Assembly (NCBI GenBank): GCA_017404935.1
Contig: JAFRBI010000009.1
Span: forward strand, 62,001-126,000
Direction: 5' to 3'
DNA from: Candidatus Saccharimonadota bacterium
GTDB taxonomy: Bacteria; Patescibacteriota; Saccharimonadia; Saccharimonadales; Saccharimonadaceae
DNA: 64,000 nt
Both the position numbers and the translations under genes were made by a program. Below the pieces are notes generated by a model. The model saw only the letters and a program-made list of their open reading frames with translations. It searched no databases and had not been told where the DNA came from. Positions 3,416 to 24,751 of the stretch are shown one piece after another; within the stretch, counting starts at the first letter, position 1, and each line of letters opens with the position of its first letter.

Positions 3416-5650
3416 CTACCATGAGACTTCCCATGGATCAGTAGCGGTACCGGAGCCGGAGGAGATATTAGTCCCCTGGGCCAGAGAAATGGCCGGGCGC
3501 ACCCCGAGCGAGTAGTTCACGTAGAGGTAGCTGTTGAGATAACCACTCGAATACAGGTGGAACACGTCCGCGTAGCCGGTCGAGACCCGGAAGTCCGGGG
3601 AGAGCAACCAGAAGCTCGAGCCGGAACGAAGGAAGGAGTTGGCGTGGTAAGTGGAACCATTAGCAGCCGCGCTAGTGCCAGAACCAGCAAATGATGCTTC
3701 ATCTGCAGTAATTAGGGCGATTGGGTTGGTAAGTTTTTTATTGCCATTGGAGGCAGAAGATGTAGTGTAGAGATCTACAGTACTACGTGGGCAACCTAGT
3801 GATGGGGTTTGGTAAGTGGAACGGTTTCTCATATGTGAGCCAAAGTAGAATATGGTAGCACTATCGCCTGATGTATATGGTGTAGTGATGCTAGTGGTGT
3901 CGCTATAGGTGGTCCAGGAAGAGCCACTATTCACGGAGCGGTCTCCACAGAAGCCAGCGCTAGTTTCTAGGTGGCTACCATAGGTACTACTGAGATTAGA
4001 AGTGTACCAAGTGTCTATCTTGCCTTTGATGGTGGAGTTGGTAGTGTTGCCGGAGAAAGCAGAGTCTTTACCAAAGAGAGTACCAGCTTGAGTAGAGGTG
4101 GTGGTGGATTTGTAGCTAGCATTGTACATATAGCCTACGCCTACGATACTCTTGCCATCGCTATTCGCAGTGGTGTCAAAGGCGGAGGTGGATGAGAATT
4201 GGGCTTTACTAGTAGCGTTAGCACAAGTAGAGCCAGTCCAGAGGCCATTGTAGATGAGCTTTGCACCGCCAGAGCCAGTAGTTCTAAGGATGCGCCAGCA
4301 GGTGCTGGTAGTGCTGTTACCACCTAGTCTGACATAGTTTGGATAAGTCACGGCTGAGCCGTTTGAGCCATAAGAGCCTACGGAGTTTTCTAGGACACCA
4401 CGGTAATAATATATCTTGTAGTCGTTTGATGCGTCTGTGGCGGCGCCAAAGGTGGTAGCGTCGTATTCATACACGCCAGAGTTGGAAGTGTCCGTGGTGT
4501 AGTTATCAGTGGTTGGGATAGTGATTTCTGCCTGGAGGTCTGCAGCGGTTTGGGTGCCTTTGCTCATGGCGGCGACAGCGTCGTAGAGCGAAGAGCCATC
4601 TTGCTCCCACATCGCATAAAGGTTAGCAGTAGTAGTGCCAGCAGCAAAGCTGGTGAAGGTGTAGGTATCACCTGGTTGGTAGGTGGCGCCTGGAGTGCCG
4701 GTGCAAGATTCGCCATCAGAGCTGAGTGTGCCATCACACCAGCCGAGGAAGTTATAACCAGATCTAGTAGGAGTGGTAGCATTTAGTTCAATTGAAGAAG
4801 CAGCGATATCACTTTCTGCATCTGGAGTAAGTAGTGGTGTAGTGCCGTCTGCGTCTAAGTAGTTTATTTGGTAGGATATGTTATTTGCCACAGCAGTAAG
4901 GACAAAGGTATTAGTATAAGTTCCTACTGGTTTAGTATAATCTACTCTTGCACCTACACCAAGTGTATAGCTATCTGCAGTAGTATTAGGAGAAGATGTG
5001 GTGTAGATAGTTTTAGCAGTAGTAGTAGATGTAGGAGCAGAAAAGAAATCTGTGGTAGTAGCACTATTTACAGTTAGTCTATAACCCCATTTGTTATTGT
5101 AAGTGGAAGCATTACCTGTTCTAAAGTCATTTTCTGTGGTATCTGCTGTAATAGTATCTAGGGTATCGCCAGTAGTGCTATTTATAAGTTGGCCAGAGGT
5201 GTCTGTTCCTAATATTTTAAGGCTATAACCGGTGAGATTATCTGTGGTGACAGTAAACTCTGCTTGGTCTGCTGCTGCACTAGTTGCAAAGGTACCAGAA
5301 GCAGAGGTTGGGGTGATATCTACTGATGCAGTGTCTTTTGATGATACGATAGATAGGGTGGTAGTGGCTGGGACGTAGGTGGCTTCGGCGTTATCAGAAG
5401 CCCTAGCAATTGGGAAAATAGTTGCAATAGTAAGTAAGCCGAAGGCAGTTATGCTAGTAAAGCCAATAATACGGACAAATCTATTATATTTAATATAGTT
5501 CTTACTAAAAGGTACTCCACTACGCCGGGGTCTAAAACCTGAGAGATGGTTATTTAAAAATAAATCAGGGTCATACAAAAGATTTACTTTTATAAGACCA
5601 CGGCGTAGGGCTAAAATAATTTTGCTGAGTTTTTGATTATGTATGACCAT
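3416..5650 (-). CDS. Large exported surface protein with InlB-type repeat and DUF6273-like C-terminal domain
   Basis: The ATG at 5650 is chosen because AAAGGAAC stands just before it; a longer start at 5674 would lie inside the leader pseudoknot. The 744-residue product has a basic N-terminus, a hydrophobic export segment near residues 45-65 ending in a plausible ARA cleavage site, and Thr/Ser-rich beta domains. Then come a Listeria-Bacteroides (InlB B) type repeat ending in NLYAMWE (about 260-340), and a C-terminal domain with SFWLLSPD...GVRPAISL (about 670-725) as in DUF6273-like proteins. No LPxTG motif or C-terminal anchor is visible. The last part changes sharply to C-ending codons (see 3485-3640). 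A structured leader RNA precedes it. Function is inferred to be surface display or adhesion. Confidence 0.8.
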   Translation of the reverse strand: MVIHNQKLSKIILALRRGLIKVNLLYDPDLFLNNHLSGFRPRRSGVPFSKNYIKYNRFVRIIGFTSITAFGLLTIATIFPIARASDNAEATYVPATTTLSIVSSKDTASVDITPTSASGTFATSAAADQAEFTVTTDNLTGYSLKILGTDTSGQLINSTTGDTLDTITADTTENDFRTGNASTYNNKWGYRLTVNSATTTDFFSAPTSTTTAKTIYTTSSPNTTADSYTLGVGARVDYTKPVGTYTNTFVLTAVANNISYQINYLDADGTTPLLTPDAESDIAASSIELNATTPTRSGYNFLGWCDGTLSSDGESCTGTPGATYQPGDTYTFTSFAAGTTTANLYAMWEQDGSSLYDAVAAMSKGTQTAADLQAEITIPTTDNYTTDTSNSGVYEYDATTFGAATDASNDYKIYYYRGVLENSVGSYGSNGSAVTYPNYVRLGGNSTTSTCWRILRTTGSGGAKLIYNGLWTGSTCANATSKAQFSSTSAFDTTANSDGKSIVGVGYMYNASYKSTTTSTQAGTLFGKDSAFSGNTTNSTIKGKIDTWYTSNLSSTYGSHLETSAGFCGDRSVNSGSSWTTYSDTTSITTPYTSGDSATIFYFGSHMRNRSTYQTPSLGCPRSTVDLYTTSSASNGNKKLTNPIALITADEASFAGSGTSAAANGSTYHANSFLRSGSSFWLLSPDFRVSTGYADVFHLYSSGYLNSYLYVNYSLGVRPAISLAQGTNISSGSGTATDPWEVSW
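3485..3640 (-). other. Candidate variable region (DGR-type) in surface protein
   Basis: About residues 670-722 of the surface protein. From SFWLLSP to GVRPAIS roughly half of the codons end in C (GAC, TTC, GTC, TAC, CAC, CTC, AAC, AGC), whereas the rest of the gene prefers T/A-ending codons. NNC codons are what adenine mutagenesis of AAC codons in a diversity-generating retroelement template yields, and DUF6273-like C-termini are a plausible variable-region scaffold. No template repeat or reverse transcriptase was found in the window, so this is inference. Confidence 0.5.
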
Positions 5651-5676
5651 ATTGTTCCTTTGTCTGTGGCCCAACT

Positions 5677-5843
5677 AAAAATGGCGCCACAAGGTGGAAC
5701 AATCAGACAAATTTACAAGCAGTATCGCCCATAAACCACTGACATCCTTATGACGCCATTTTTATGGTCTATTTGCGATATTACTTATAAATAAAAGTAA
5801 CTGCTTATTGTAAAATTATCTGATTGTTCCATTTCTTATTATA
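5677..5843 (-). promoter_or_regulatory. Structured 5' leader RNA (copy A) of surface protein gene
   Basis: Read on the minus strand: TATAAT (5843-5838), then about 7 nt to the start of stem P1. P1 pairs 5830-5801 with 5712-5696 (GGAACAATCAGA... / ...TCTGATTGTTCC, closed by AAGCAG/CTGCTT). A side hairpin TTACTT..AAGTAA follows, then P2 TATCGC/GCGATA and P3 CCATAAA/TTTATGG. The P3 loop strand AAAAATGGCGTCA (5763-5751) pairs with TGGCGCCATTTTT (5689-5677), 3' of P1, giving a pseudoknot followed by a U-run. The start codon lies about 25 nt further on. Homologous to 24589-24751 and 8620-8777. Confidence 0.8.
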
Positions 5844-5902: not shown

Positions 5903-5987
5903 TTGATTTTTGATGTAAAGTTTGATATAATATAAAGTATATTCGGGAATACCCGCACCCTAGTTGAAAAACTAGGGGACATTTTTT
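5903..5987 (+). ncRNA. Short promoter-terminator unit, candidate small RNA
   Basis: TTGATT (5903-5908), a 17-nt spacer and TATAAT (5926-5931) are followed within about 50 nt by the hairpin CCCTAGTT-GAAA-AACTAGGG (5958-5977) and a T-run to 5987. The predicted transcript is about 50 nt from roughly 5938, with no room for a coding region. Its end meets the 3' end of the convergent MazF-like gene, so the hairpin may serve as terminator for both. It could be only a bidirectional terminator with a chance promoter. Confidence 0.45.
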
Positions 5988-6387
5988 ATCTGGAATATAA
6001 TTTGATAAAACTTGCGCGGACCTTCTCTAAATCCACTTCTGGAATTTGCCCAATTCTACTATACAATCTAGATGCGCTATAAACCCTAGCCTGTGATAAA
6101 ACTGCCGTTTCAACTCTGTCTTGAAAAACGAAATCTTCATACCAAGACCCACTATGATGTTGTGATGTTAATGGGATACCCATAAAACCATACTTGCTCA
6201 ATTTCTTTAATACTAAAACTGGTCGCGAGAAATATTCGCTTTTGCCGTTTATCTCCACGCCAACATTTTCGCCAACCCCAACCCACCAAATTTCGCCTTG
6301 ACGAAGTAATTGAATTTTTTCGTCTGGCGTTTTGTGAAAATCTTCTTTCACAATATTCCAATCTTGTAACAATTTATGTTTATCCAT
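5986..6387 (-). CDS. PemK/MazF-like toxin-family protein
   Basis: 133 residues. Residues about 30-130 follow the PemK/MazF fold: QGEIWWVGVGENVG, RPVLVLKKL, FMGIPLTSQ, then AVLSQARVYSASRLYSRIGQI, where MazF proteins have the conserved LSQ/R segment. Family members are sequence-specific ribonucleases, mostly in type II toxin-antitoxin pairs. The N-terminal 30 residues are an extra helix not found in minimal MazF. No antitoxin gene is adjacent: 6388-6542 has no credible open frame. It may therefore be an orphan, or the antitoxin lies elsewhere. The start has GGAG 6-7 nt upstream. Confidence 0.75.
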   Translation of the reverse strand: MDKHKLLQDWNIVKEDFHKTPDEKIQLLRQGEIWWVGVGENVGVEINGKSEYFSRPVLVLKKLSKYGFMGIPLTSQHHSGSWYEDFVFQDRVETAVLSQARVYSASRLYSRIGQIPEVDLEKVRASFIKLYSR

Positions 6388-7915: not shown

Positions 7916-8002
7916 GGGCGGCTGGCGGAACTGGTAGACGCGCTAGACTCAAAATCTTGTGGTAGCAATACCGTGAGGGTTCAAGTCCCTCGCCGCCCAC
8001 CA
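7916..8002 (+). tRNA. tRNA-Leu (CAA)
   Basis: Acceptor stem GGGCGGC/GCCGCCC, D-arm GCGGAACTGGTAGACGC, anticodon loop CTCAAAA (anticodon CAA), a variable arm, T-arm GAGGG-TTCAAGT-CCCTC, and encoded CCA. The anticodon stem CTAGA/TCTTG contains one U.U mismatch, which is odd but tolerable. The 3' end and downstream sequence are repeated in degenerate form at 8546-8587. Confidence 0.95.
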
Positions 8003-8019
8003 AGGGGCTGTTTTTTATT
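7978..8019 (+). repeat. tRNA-Leu 3'-end repeat, left copy
   Basis: The T-arm, acceptor 3' half, CCA and the following GGCTGTTTTTTATT match 8546-8587 at about 33 of 42 positions, nearly all differences being transitions. This direct repeat brackets the nuclease gene at 8087-8482 and looks like an old att-type duplication. Confidence 0.65.
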
Positions 8020-8086: not shown

Positions 8087-8482
8087 TCAAACTAATGCCT
8101 TAATGTCAATAATCTGGCCACGTTTGTTGATGAAGATTAAATTTTTAAGAGTAGGTAAATCTTTAGCTTTATTGATCAATAAACGCTGGATATCAGAATC
8201 TTTTAGCCCTTTTATCCTAGATGAGTCGATTACCACATTAGGGCATTTTTCTAGAGCTCTCTTAACGTTACGAACTATCTTCTTAGGATTATTAGTAATT
8301 GGGGATTTTATCTCATATCTGGTGTTATCTAGGATAATGTCCGGAGTCTTAACACTGGTTTCTGGAATAAACTCTACATAATGCCCGGCCAGAGCTAAGA
8401 TTTTTGCGACACGCTCTTCGTGAGGCCACGGATTTGCAGTAGCTGGAGTCACAACTTTGCCTCGCAAATTATCCTTAATCAT
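8087..8482 (-). CDS. Small PD-(D/E)xK-type nuclease resembling CdiA-CT tRNase domains
   Basis: 131 residues. HEERVAKILALAGHYVEFIPE, then TPDIILDNTRYEIKSP places E, D and ExK in the spacing of a PD-(D/E)xK nuclease. The overall layout resembles the tRNase domain at the C-terminus of CdiA-type contact-dependent inhibition toxins, which also occurs as stand-alone small proteins on mobile elements. No immunity gene is recognisable next to it. It is enclosed by the duplicated tRNA-Leu 3' end, which supports acquisition by integration. Activity as a tRNase, rather than a DNase or Holliday-type nuclease, is inference. Confidence 0.6.
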   Translation of the reverse strand: MIKDNLRGKVVTPATANPWPHEERVAKILALAGHYVEFIPETSVKTPDIILDNTRYEIKSPITNNPKKIVRNVKRALEKCPNVVIDSSRIKGLKDSDIQRLLINKAKDLPTLKNLIFINKRGQIIDIKALV

Positions 8483-8545
8483 CTAGACGATTCTACCAGA
8501 TATGAAGTATGTTGTCAAACGTAAGTATTTTAGTAGTAAGGTGCA

Positions 8546-8587
8546 GGCTTGAATCTCTCTTCGCCCGCCAAGAGGCTGTTTTTTATT
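8546..8587 (+). repeat. tRNA-Leu 3'-end repeat, decayed right copy
   Basis: Partner of 7978-8019; CGCCCGCCAAGAGGCTG and the T-rich tail are kept, while the T-arm is degraded. It cannot form a tRNA. It is best explained as the far end of an integrated segment about 0.57 kb long. Confidence 0.65.
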
Positions 8588-8619
8588 TTAGGGCACTATC
8601 TATTGAATGTTATTTGTGA

Positions 8620-8777
8620 TATAATTAACTTGTCCTAAACAAAAGGGGAAACCCTAAAATGCAAATAGATGCTCAGCCGTAAAACATGGTGATTTCGTCC
8701 AATATACAGGACATCACGGGCAACGGACGAAAGTCTATTTGCAAAAAAGGTTTAGGACAACCATCGTGGTGTCCTGT
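8620..8777 (+). promoter_or_regulatory. Structured 5' leader RNA (copy C) of PASTA-like protein gene
   Basis: TATAAT (8620-8625) stands about 5 nt before P1 TTGTCCTAAAC (8630-8640), which pairs with GTTTAGGACAA (8750-8760). Inside are the side hairpin GGGG-AA-ACCC, P2 GCAAATAGA/TCTATTTGC and P3 TTTCGTCC/GGACGAAA. The P3 loop ACAGGACATCACG (8706-8718) pairs with CGTGGTGTCCTGT (8765-8777), 3' of P1, followed by TTTTT. This is the same topology as 5677-5843 and 24589-24751. The 346-bp gap 8483-8828 contains this element and no gene. Confidence 0.75.
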
Positions 8778-8828
8778 TTTTATGCAGGCGCTAATAAACC
8801 ATATCACTAAATAAAGGAGGTATTCCAT

Positions 8829-9761
8829 ATGGACAAAAATGACAAAAGCCCGGGGCGACATAGTGCAATAGAGCACAACGACGCTAATAACATTAGAGCA
8901 ACAGGAAATTCTGTAACTAAAAATCAAATAGATAAACAGTTTAAGCCCGACTCTAAAAATAAGAAAATATTATTTTTGGTATTGGGGATAGCCGTTCTAT
9001 TAATAGTTGTTGTTATGATTATCATGAACGTTGCCAAGCCTAGCTATGAAGAGTATGATTTGAAGGGGCTTACGGTAAAAGAGGCTTGCGAGAAGGCTCG
9101 TGGTGCAGGATGGGAAGTAAGTAGAGTAATTTCAGTTGAGGACGACGATAAAACGGATTGCTATAATACAAGCATTATCGTTACCGATTATTCTTACTAC
9201 GAATATAACCATTCTATGACCATTTATTTCGGTGAAAAGAAAACTGAAGAACAAAAGAAAGCTGAATGTGAGGCAAGTGGCAAATGGTATCGTGATAGCT
9301 CTTGCAAAAGCGAGGAAGAATGGGAGAACGATTATGCTTGGGAAAATGCGCACGCAGCCTGCAAAAAATACGGCAGTAGTGGTTACGCAAAAACATTGAC
9401 CGATTGTTATGTCGGCAGCGAATATAAAGGTCCGGTAGACGGGGCATTGACAACTGAAACGCAGAGTAACGCTTCTACTTCATCTAGTTCTAACTCTGGT
9501 TCTAATTCCAGCTGGAAACAAGTACTCAGAGAATATGAAGCTTGGATGAATGATTATGTTAATTTTATGAAAAAATACAACAATACTTCGGACACTTCAT
9601 CAAAGCTAGCAATGTTAGAAGATTACACACGTCTAGCGAGTGAAATGACCAGCTGGACTCAAAAAGTTGAAAACGTAAAAGGGGATCTATCAGAGTCTGA
9701 CTTGGTAGAATACCTTCAAACTATTAACCGTGTTAACCAAAAATTAAGTGAACTTTATTAG
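8829..9761 (+). CDS. Membrane-anchored PASTA-like protein
   Basis: 310 residues. AGGAGG lies 8 nt before the ATG. A hydrophilic 50-residue cytoplasmic N-terminus precedes one transmembrane segment (about 51-73). Then YDLKGLTVKEACEKARGAGWEV... (about 80-140) resembles a PASTA domain, a fold that binds peptidoglycan fragments in kinases and penicillin-binding proteins. The rest has a Cys-containing acidic region, a Ser/Asn linker (215-230) and a C-terminal helical segment. It is probably an envelope-facing protein. It is followed after 9 nt by a four-helix membrane protein. The leader RNA suggests shared control with the two surface proteins. Confidence 0.6.
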   Translation: MDKNDKSPGRHSAIEHNDANNIRATGNSVTKNQIDKQFKPDSKNKKILFLVLGIAVLLIVVVMIIMNVAKPSYEEYDLKGLTVKEACEKARGAGWEVSRVISVEDDDKTDCYNTSIIVTDYSYYEYNHSMTIYFGEKKTEEQKKAECEASGKWYRDSSCKSEEEWENDYAWENAHAACKKYGSSGYAKTLTDCYVGSEYKGPVDGALTTETQSNASTSSSSNSGSNSSWKQVLREYEAWMNDYVNFMKKYNNTSDTSSKLAMLEDYTRLASEMTSWTQKVENVKGDLSESDLVEYLQTINRVNQKLSELY

Positions 9762-23286: not shown

Positions 23287-24549
23287 TTATGGTTGTTTAA
23301 GAATGCAGCGGATAGAATAACCCATATAAGGGTAGGTTCTAGCGTACGGGTGAACTGTGTTTGGTCTCGAAACTTGGAAGGTATCTACGGCGGCGTTGTC
23401 AACCATATCAGATTCCCAAAATTGACCATAAGTGCCAGTGCCAGACACACTCTGGAATAATTGACCAGCAAGAGCAAAAGCAAACCCGCCGCTAGAAATT
23501 GGTGCTACCAATTCAGCGACTGTATTATATTCAGACTGAGCGTAGAGATTCGTGCCGTCATTAGCGCTTGGTAAACGCCAACCAGCTGGGCAAAGGTCTT
23601 CGGTTGAATCGCCAGCAATTCTTCCATTCTCGCAATAAAAGGTAGTCATAGCCGTAGCGGCACAATAGTTGTATAACACTCCATAAGAAGTTTGCGAGGT
23701 TGAGTCTATGCCCGCCACAGAAACAAGTTCTGGAGTAAGGCCATTACCAATAGCAGTAGTTTTTTTCCAGGTAGCGACATCGGAAGCTGAAATCATTCCG
23801 GAAAAGTTGGAATTAGCGCTCGTCAAATCTGTAACCAACGGGACCGCCCCAAGATTAAGATTTGTCATCATCCAACAATTACCATCAGCAAGTCTCTGTA
23901 TAATATATTCCTGGTTATCGCGAATATCTAGAACAGTTAGTGGTGTTGAGGTACAACGAGTTGGCGCAATGTTTTGAATAGTTGGAGTGAGCGGGTTAGC
24001 AACCAAGCTAAAATTAAAGGTAGTAGAATACGTTCCTTCCGGTTGCATATAATCTATTTTGGTAGCAAATCTAAGAGTGGTATTATCATCATTTACTGGA
24101 CCTGTATTTTCTAGAACTATATCTCCGGAATTGAATGGGAAATAGTTATTTGAAAGACCATTTTTATAACCCCATTTGTTTGCTACAAAGTCTGAATCTG
24201 TATAACCAGCGGTAGTAGGCGATGATGGTGGAAGTGTCTCTATTACAGTGTTAGAGTCTGCTGTATTAACCAGATTGGTATCATCATTGTTGGTAGATAT
24301 AGTTAGTTTGTAGCCAGTTTCATTATTAGTACCGACACTTATCGGTAAATCTTTATAGCCAAAGGTGGTAGATGATGGGTCTAGTGAGAGATTAAGTGCG
24401 GTAGTTGGCATGGTAAGGGTAAGAGATGGCTCTATGCCTACGCTGGTGGTAATGGTTTCTGTCGCAAAAGCATTATTTACAAAAGTTAAACTTATAAAAC
24501 TTAATGTTATGATTTTTATTGCCCCTGTTAAAACCCGTTTTATGATCAT
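23287..24549 (-). CDS. FISUMP-domain surface protein
   Basis: 420 residues. A signal peptide (1-29, NNAFA-T) is followed by the shared beta domain (about 30-185, with NKWGYKNG and GTYSTTFNFSLVA). The C-terminal Fibrobacter-succinogenes-major-paralogous (FISUMP) domain contains LADGNCWMMTNLNLG, TSYGVLYNYCAATA, LCPAGWRLPSAND, QFWESDMVDN and GYSIRCIL. The FISUMP fold is related to C-type lectin-like domains that can serve as retroelement variable regions. No anchor motif follows. GTGAGG precedes the ATG; a structured leader RNA homologous to that of the large surface protein lies upstream. Probably a secreted or surface-bound ligand-binding protein. Confidence 0.85.
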   Translation of the reverse strand: MIIKRVLTGAIKIITLSFISLTFVNNAFATETITTSVGIEPSLTLTMPTTALNLSLDPSSTTFGYKDLPISVGTNNETGYKLTISTNNDDTNLVNTADSNTVIETLPPSSPTTAGYTDSDFVANKWGYKNGLSNNYFPFNSGDIVLENTGPVNDDNTTLRFATKIDYMQPEGTYSTTFNFSLVANPLTPTIQNIAPTRCTSTPLTVLDIRDNQEYIIQRLADGNCWMMTNLNLGAVPLVTDLTSANSNFSGMISASDVATWKKTTAIGNGLTPELVSVAGIDSTSQTSYGVLYNYCAATAMTTFYCENGRIAGDSTEDLCPAGWRLPSANDGTNLYAQSEYNTVAELVAPISSGGFAFALAGQLFQSVSGTGTYGQFWESDMVDNAAVDTFQVSRPNTVHPYARTYPYMGYSIRCILKQP

Positions 24550-24588
24550 TTTTACCTCACTTATGATTTTTTAACGTGGGGCCAAACT

Positions 24589-24751
24589 AAAAACGGCACC
24601 ACGAGGTGCAACAATCAAATATATGTACTAGCATTGCCAATACAGTATACTGACTTCCTCATGATGCCGTTTTAATACTGTATTGATGCGCCAACTAAAT
24701 AAAAATTGGCTGCTTTACATGCATATATTTAATTGTTGCAATTTTATTATA
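24589..24751 (-). promoter_or_regulatory. Structured 5' leader RNA (copy B) of FISUMP gene
   Basis: Minus strand: TATAAT (24751-24746), about 6 nt, then P1 GCAACAATTAAATATATG.. pairing with ..CATATATTTGATTGTTGC. A side hairpin GCCAATT/AGTTGGC follows, then P2/P3 CAATACAGTAT/ATACTGTATTG. The loop strand AAAACGGCATCA (24673-24662) pairs with TGGTGCCGTTTTT (24601-24589), 3' of P1. Compared with copy A the pairing changes from ATGGCG/CGCCAT to ACGGCA/TGCCGT, compensatory in both strands. The loop sequence TCATRAGGAWGTCAGT is nearly identical in A and B. Confidence 0.8.

Follow-up and report, generated by a model that had tools for sequence, protein, structure and literature searches.

What does the sequence between the promoter and the gene at about 8.6 kb do, and is its fold more than chance? 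In the window, by which we mean the whole 64-kb stretch of Saccharibacteria DNA that was analysed, positions 8620-8781 of the plus strand hold a promoter-linked leader in which helix P1, a side hairpin, helices P2 and P3, and a 14-bp pseudoknot between the P3 loop and the 3' tail follow one another in order. A sequence-only reading had named these elements in this order, and all of them were found when the letters were read directly. The span it gave, 8620-8777, was right at its start and too short at its end; 8777 lies within the T run, and the unit extends to 8781.

Architecture of the 8.6-kb leader

The following features were located on the plus strand:

8620-8625, plus: extended -10 element TATAAT, preceded by TGA (sequence; in other copies, TATAAT stands 2-9 nt before P1)
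8630-8640 and 8750-8760, plus: P1, 11 bp, TTGTCCTAAAC/GTTTAGGACAA (sequence and RNAfold; the helix covaries in 20 outgroup copies)
8644-8647 and 8652-8655, plus: side hairpin AGGG-GAAA-CCCT with a GAAA loop (sequence and RNAfold; kept in the G426 orthologue)
8660-8669 and 8734-8743, plus: P2, a perfect 10-bp complement, TGCAAATAGA/TCTATTTGCA (sequence)
8693-8700 and 8725-8732, plus: P3, a perfect 8-bp complement, TTTCGTCC/GGACGAAA (sequence)
8706-8719, plus: anti-tail 1 (AT1) in the P3 loop, ACAGGACATCACGG, the 5' strand of the pseudoknot and proposed antiterminator (pairing with 8764-8777)
8764-8777, plus: tail strand TCGTGGTGTCCTGT, the partner of AT1 (sequence and structure-only scan)
8754-8781, plus: predicted intrinsic terminator AGGAC(A)ACCA-TCG-TGGTGTCCT, then G and TTTTT; 9 bp with one bulge, -10.2 kcal/mol
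8813-8820, plus: Shine-Dalgarno sequence AAAGGAGG (sequence)
8829-9761, plus: downstream gene, 310 aa, with one N-terminal membrane segment and a C-terminal DUF6591 domain (Pfam)

TATAAT and P1 are 4 nt apart, and the RNA should begin with the first base pairs of P1. The end of the P1 3' strand doubles as the 5' arm of the terminator, and the Shine-Dalgarno sequence and the ATG (8829) follow the end of the leader by 31 and 47 nt, respectively. Attenuation by a ribosome translating a leader peptide was considered here, as a 7-codon reading frame (MQIDAQP) is readable at 8659-8682 and some copies carry a Shine-Dalgarno-like sequence inside AT1. However, such a frame occurs in 62 of 147 copies versus about 40 after shuffling, the lengths are scattered and none is conserved, and the frame at 8659 closes elsewhere in the G426 orthologue, which makes this explanation highly improbable.

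Three copies in the window and their common family

A structure-only scan, which asked for P1, the loop-to-tail helix and T5 and required no sequence, returned exactly three sites in 64 kb: 8630 on the plus strand (score 57), 24740 on the minus strand (73) and 5829 on the minus strand (70), each with a six-of-six TATAAT 4-8 nt before P1. These are the same three copies that had been counted earlier, with no others. When the whole window was dinucleotide-shuffled 120 times, the highest score reached was 55, and the shuffled windows held a mean of 0.025 sites scoring at least 46 with TATAAT in place.

Three covariance models were used: R1, built from five alike copies of the window's own genome without the 8.6-kb copy; R2, from 102 copies; and R3, from 20 outgroup-type copies, none of them from this genome. 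The other two copies are:

24581-24751, minus: second copy, of the amplified gut type (R1 E=2e-36, R3 E=2e-8)
5669-5843, minus: third copy (R1 E=2e-36, R3 E=1e-6), with a weak terminator hairpin of -4.3 kcal/mol

The 8.6-kb copy had been described as a diverged member of a structured leader family, and R3 bears this out: its top match in the window is 8620-8787, with 52.8 bits (E=7.5e-10), followed by the 24.6-kb and then the 5.7-kb copies. Taken literally, the suggested check that a covariance model of the other copies should recognise this one fails; the amplified-type models barely score it (R1 13.4 bits, E=0.25; R2 15.8 bits, E=0.055), because it is nearer the ancestral type. Of the three, the 8.6-kb copy is the nearest to that type, and the 24.6-kb and 5.7-kb copies are of the type amplified in gut lineages.

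The pairing itself covaries. In the 20 outgroup leaders, 98.8% of the cells in P1 and the pseudoknot are paired versus 82.5% when shuffled, with 72 two-sided changes versus 22.8 and a covariation of 0.533 versus 0.209, a value reached in 0 of 500 shuffles; at most 50% remain paired when the alignment is slid. Unprompted, RNAalifold folded the pseudoknot helix with 20/20 copies paired in each of 10 pairs, and all 20 outgroup copies pair throughout the helix homologous to AT1/tail, four of whose pairs covary on both sides. Across 147 copies, about half of which were found by a pattern requiring pairing and the rest by R1, which is without the pseudoknot, pairing is complete at the six core pseudoknot positions, where up to six pair types occur. 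Chance structure is ruled out by the structure-only scan, the shuffles, the covariation and the R3 match. After AT1 comes an unpaired AARCA-like stretch, present in 27 of 34 outgroup copies versus 27% in random 16-mers, and this would fit a ligand-binding or aptamer core.

Two exclusive partners of the tail

The tail strand has two mutually exclusive partners, namely the P3 loop, with which it forms a 14-bp helix including two wobbles at 8.6 kb (duplex -22.9 kcal/mol), or the end of P1 (-10.2 kcal/mol); the 8.6-kb terminator excludes both the base of P1 and the pseudoknot. The pairing between the P1 end and the tail is GCACC/GGUGC in most gut copies, GACACC/GGUGUC in the outgroups and ACGCC/GGCGU in L091 and L092; it is rewritten to GGCCCU/AGGGCC in L069 and UCGAAGCC/GGUGUCGA in L044, reads GACGACC/GGUCGUC in L279 versus GACAACC/GGUUGUC in L276, and is AGGAC(A)ACCA/UGGUGUCCU at 8.6 kb. 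In every copy listed the hairpin stands directly ahead of the U run, and the outgroup copies have the textbook terminator form GACACC-UUGC-GGUGUC-G-U5. The 18 copies with altered tails have a mean hairpin score of 15.06 versus 11.40 (sd 0.50) when 5' segments were taken from other copies, and 0 of 1000 such permutations did as well, a figure that is not a clean probability since related copies share changes.

The segment 8754-8781 has the features of an attenuator, a G+C-rich hairpin that adjoins a U run and is exclusive with an alternative fold; the bulged A hides it from a simple terminator scan. The terminator hairpin of the gut copies is mostly 4-5 bp, and a few copies besides the 5.7-kb one score low. 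On paper the pseudoknot, at about -23 kcal/mol, is far stabler than the terminator, at -7 to -10 kcal/mol, so some factor or kinetics would be needed for the terminator to win.

A second anti-tail complementary to the tail (e.g., GTGGCACCGCAAGGGG) can follow the U run at a distance of a few to about 60 nt, before the Shine-Dalgarno sequence. Among 80 non-redundant gut-type copies, it reached p<=0.05 individually in 41 and p<=0.01 in 36 (94 of 142 copies before redundancy reduction). In the window's own genome it is short (e.g., CGGCCTCACG), and the Shine-Dalgarno sequence GTGAGG is another possible partner for it; at the 8.6-kb copy none was found (p=0.6). It probably adds a translational or refolding layer. 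Control might even be mainly translational, with this segment near the Shine-Dalgarno sequence taking the tail or, in the own genome, pairing with the Shine-Dalgarno sequence itself. The 41 non-redundant copies with a tail-complementary segment and the CCTCAC/GTGAGG pairing present in own-genome copies speak for such a scheme, but the 8.6-kb copy is without the partner and the terminator and its U tract are kept family-wide, and we consider it decidedly unlikely. At L278 (1-1500, minus strand), a second complete terminator hairpin, GTGGCACC-GCAA-GGTGTCAC-TTTT, directly follows the leader, and the second anti-tail of the gut copies may be a remnant of a second terminator of this type.

Distribution of the leader

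The window's own genome (740 kb, from a parasitic member of the Saccharibacteria) has at least 11 copies, at C1:43819, C1:101221, C3:48011, C3:80744, C5:47856, C5:67669, C5:70620, C5:86581, C7:49635, C9:30575 and C10:15310. With R1, 13 of 40 relatives proved to carry the leader, with as many as 16 copies in one genome. When named genomes were scanned with a pattern, at least 118 stretches matched, nearly all in metagenome-assembled genomes (MAGs) of Candidatus Saccharibacteria, and where titles name a source it is mostly cattle, sheep, goat or roe-deer gut among the matches listed. R2 extended the range to further genera within the family and to three more families of the order, and R3 gave matches in 127 of 392 genomes sampled from the class and 23 of 379 from the phylum, six of these 23 outside the class. 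Four of the six were read; L280, L281 and L283 show the full arrangement, and the phylum match L274 is probably contamination from the same family. Ruminant-gut relatives have tens of copies, and other genera, families and apparently other classes have one to a few; these copy numbers are lower bounds, since searches of more than 40 genomes scored 7-9 candidates per genome.

Several candidates were set aside. A viral origin or spread was rejected, as exact, strict patterns for both sub-types had no match in 2.9 million viral contigs. The leader also occurs, with Saccharibacteria-like genes alongside, in rabbit-gut MAGs labelled Oscillospiraceae (L140), Dysosmobacter (L144) and Bacilli (L198). 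The neighbours of L140 match the window at 52-56%, and L144 and L198 match loci of the set, so these are probably misbinned contigs and transfer to those groups was rejected. L083, L087 and L088, together with antisense R1 matches, are hairpin look-alikes and were removed from the set, and L172 (no P1), L219 and L264 were kept out of the evidence. The three look-alikes represent a separate long imperfect palindrome (TTTGTGAGTATTTGTTAAGTCAGATTTGAATTAGAAAAATGCCACC...) that recurs in genome G005 and is not a leader.

We also observed that in many copies (L015, L040, L072; contig ends in G005, G011 and G022) the contig breaks off 100-300 nt away on the side of the gene. Within one genome, paralogous surface genes have almost the same sequence past the leader but different leaders, as would be seen if coding parts had been copied behind standing leaders.

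Genes behind the leader

The product of the downstream gene had been called PASTA-like; a weak PASTA-like stretch is present, but the Pfam PASTA match (E=0.018) falls under the cut-off, and the domain that is found is DUF6591 (E=5e-16). The closest orthologue (G426, 65% identity) keeps the leader and its pseudoknot, the same helix with a G-U to A-U change, whereas three remote homologues (37-54%) are without a detectable leader. The genes behind the other two copies are:

23287-24549, minus: secreted Fib_succ_major protein (PF09603), after the 24.6-kb leader (Pfam)
3416-5650, minus: exported 744-aa protein, after the 5.7-kb leader

Targets were counted for the 99 non-identical copies that are followed by 600 nt or more of sequence. 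An open reading frame with a Shine-Dalgarno sequence follows within 260 nt in 92 of these, and 87 of the 92 begin with a signal or membrane segment, versus 21 of 55 open reading frames of the window; most of the other five appear secreted by eye. With at least 11 copies in the genome, the earlier idea of a regulon of envelope genes is supported, as judged by shared architecture and gene class. Outside the gut clade, the targets are small membrane proteins, TM2, DUF4352 and OmpA-domain proteins, together with restriction-modification genes: type II/III DNA methylases in L226, L235, L260, L278 and L282, and a Tsp45I-type restriction enzyme in L267. A probable OLD-type ATPase gene, identified by eye, lies just 3' of the leader in L022.

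Proposed mechanism

Both tail pairings survive full rewriting of the sequence, which makes an attenuator with a pseudoknot antiterminator the best explanation. The leader is probably a cis-acting, riboswitch-like element of this kind that works by transcription attenuation. We infer from sequence and structure that termination occurs, in which direction it is regulated and that a signal sets it. Transcription would start at the first P1 pairs, and P1, P2, the side hairpin and P3 would fold co-transcriptionally as the RNA emerges. If the tail then paired with the P3 loop on an intact P1, no terminator would form and the polymerase would go on to transcribe the gene; should the end of P1 open and pair with the tail instead, the G+C-rich hairpin followed by U5 would stop transcription. 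A signal (small molecule, protein, ion or temperature) that stabilises or loosens the P1/pseudoknot state would set the ratio, and in most gut relatives the second anti-tail just before the Shine-Dalgarno sequence could capture the tail after read-through.

Direct ligand sensing by the leader would be the likeliest form of the signal, and the leader is a plausible candidate riboswitch. However, a metabolite riboswitch would usually control genes of a common metabolic pathway, and the targets here share none. The same attenuator could instead have a macromolecular trigger, such as an RNA-binding protein of envelope stress or host attachment, for which the leader would be the recognition site of a global regulator. 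The envelope and restriction-modification targets without a common metabolite, and a copy number that grows with a surface-protein family in one genus, favour such a trigger, but the AARCA-like unpaired nucleotides would suit an aptamer core equally well, and we regard the protein version as possible and somewhat doubtful.

Another explanation is a constitutive 5' stabiliser without any switch, in which P1 buries the 5' end, the pseudoknot resists degradation, the mRNAs of abundant surface proteins are long-lived and the hairpin is a by-product. P1 does begin at the expected transcription start, the pseudoknot is more strictly conserved than the hairpin and the 5.7-kb terminator is poor. Nevertheless, the CACC/GGTG complementarity survives several independent rewrites and always ends 0-3 nt before T4-5, which would be superfluous in a stabiliser, and restriction-modification genes would be odd clients, making this explanation unlikely.

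Attenuation through the pseudoknot would matter for a phylum, the Patescibacteria, with tiny genomes and little-known gene control. One leader RNA that precedes the majority of the large surface proteins in a genome, and restriction-modification genes in relatives, would globally regulate the molecules that face host and phage. We also propose, tentatively and with less than even confidence, that the leader is a Patescibacteria-wide orphan riboswitch class, a global switch of the surface and DNA-restriction repertoire in epibionts, with more than 10 copies per genome in gut Saccharibacteria, that senses a signal linked to host attachment. The leader could also serve as a structure-defined marker to find surface and accessory genes in the phylum. 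Its role is directly testable, as culture and genetic manipulation are now possible for members of the Saccharibacteria (PMC11665869).

Comparison with known RNA systems

A known RNA family was ruled out by covariance-model searches against Rfam 15, which gave no family match for the window at the gathering score, for 8560-8850 and three copies at E<=5, or for twelve loci at E<=1; the matches in those searches were chance, tRNA, RNase P and the unrelated LOOT RNA only. LOOT RNA (RF03000) is a structured RNA that likewise occurs in these genomes; in L227 it occupies another stretch (2749-2866, 74 bits), about 1.1 kb downstream of the leader, and does not match the leader.

In terminating riboswitches with pseudoknot aptamers (preQ1-I, fluoride/crcB), a promoter-proximal pseudoknot competes with an intrinsic terminator that contains the shared 3' arm. 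The leader resembles these in the competition between pseudoknot and terminator, in its place near the promoter and in the conserved unpaired nucleotides beside the pseudoknot; however, its loop-to-tail pairing is far larger (12-14 bp) and encloses the whole P1-P3 domain, and its targets are envelope and restriction genes rather than one pathway. The competing terminator and antiterminator and a GGCACCG-like string recall the T-box, but there is no Rfam T-box match, the U of UGGN is not kept (C, T, G or A precedes GGC), there is no specifier stem and the targets are not aminoacyl-tRNA genes. EAR and put-type processive antiterminator RNAs are promoter-proximal structured RNAs ahead of long genes for exported products; the leader shares this placement but differs in having its terminator inside the element and no Rfam match. 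A mainly open-access literature search found no description of such a leader in Saccharibacteria or the Candidate Phyla Radiation. The RNA family, its host phylum and its target set appear to be new, and the type of mechanism is already known.

Neighbourhood of the copies

Two further features lie close to the copies in the window. A 57-nt direct repeat (7963-8019 and 8531-8587, 74%) of the 3' half of a tRNA-Leu and its terminator flanks a 131-aa CdiA_C-domain gene (8087-8482, PF18451 E=1e-8). The repeat pair resembles what an insertion at a tRNA end would leave behind, and it ends 33 nt upstream of the promoter of the 8.6-kb leader. Directly upstream of the 5.7-kb leader is a PemK/MazF-like toxin gene (5986-6387, minus strand, PF02452 E=3e-7), and a protein similar to its product is also encoded near L088 in another genome.
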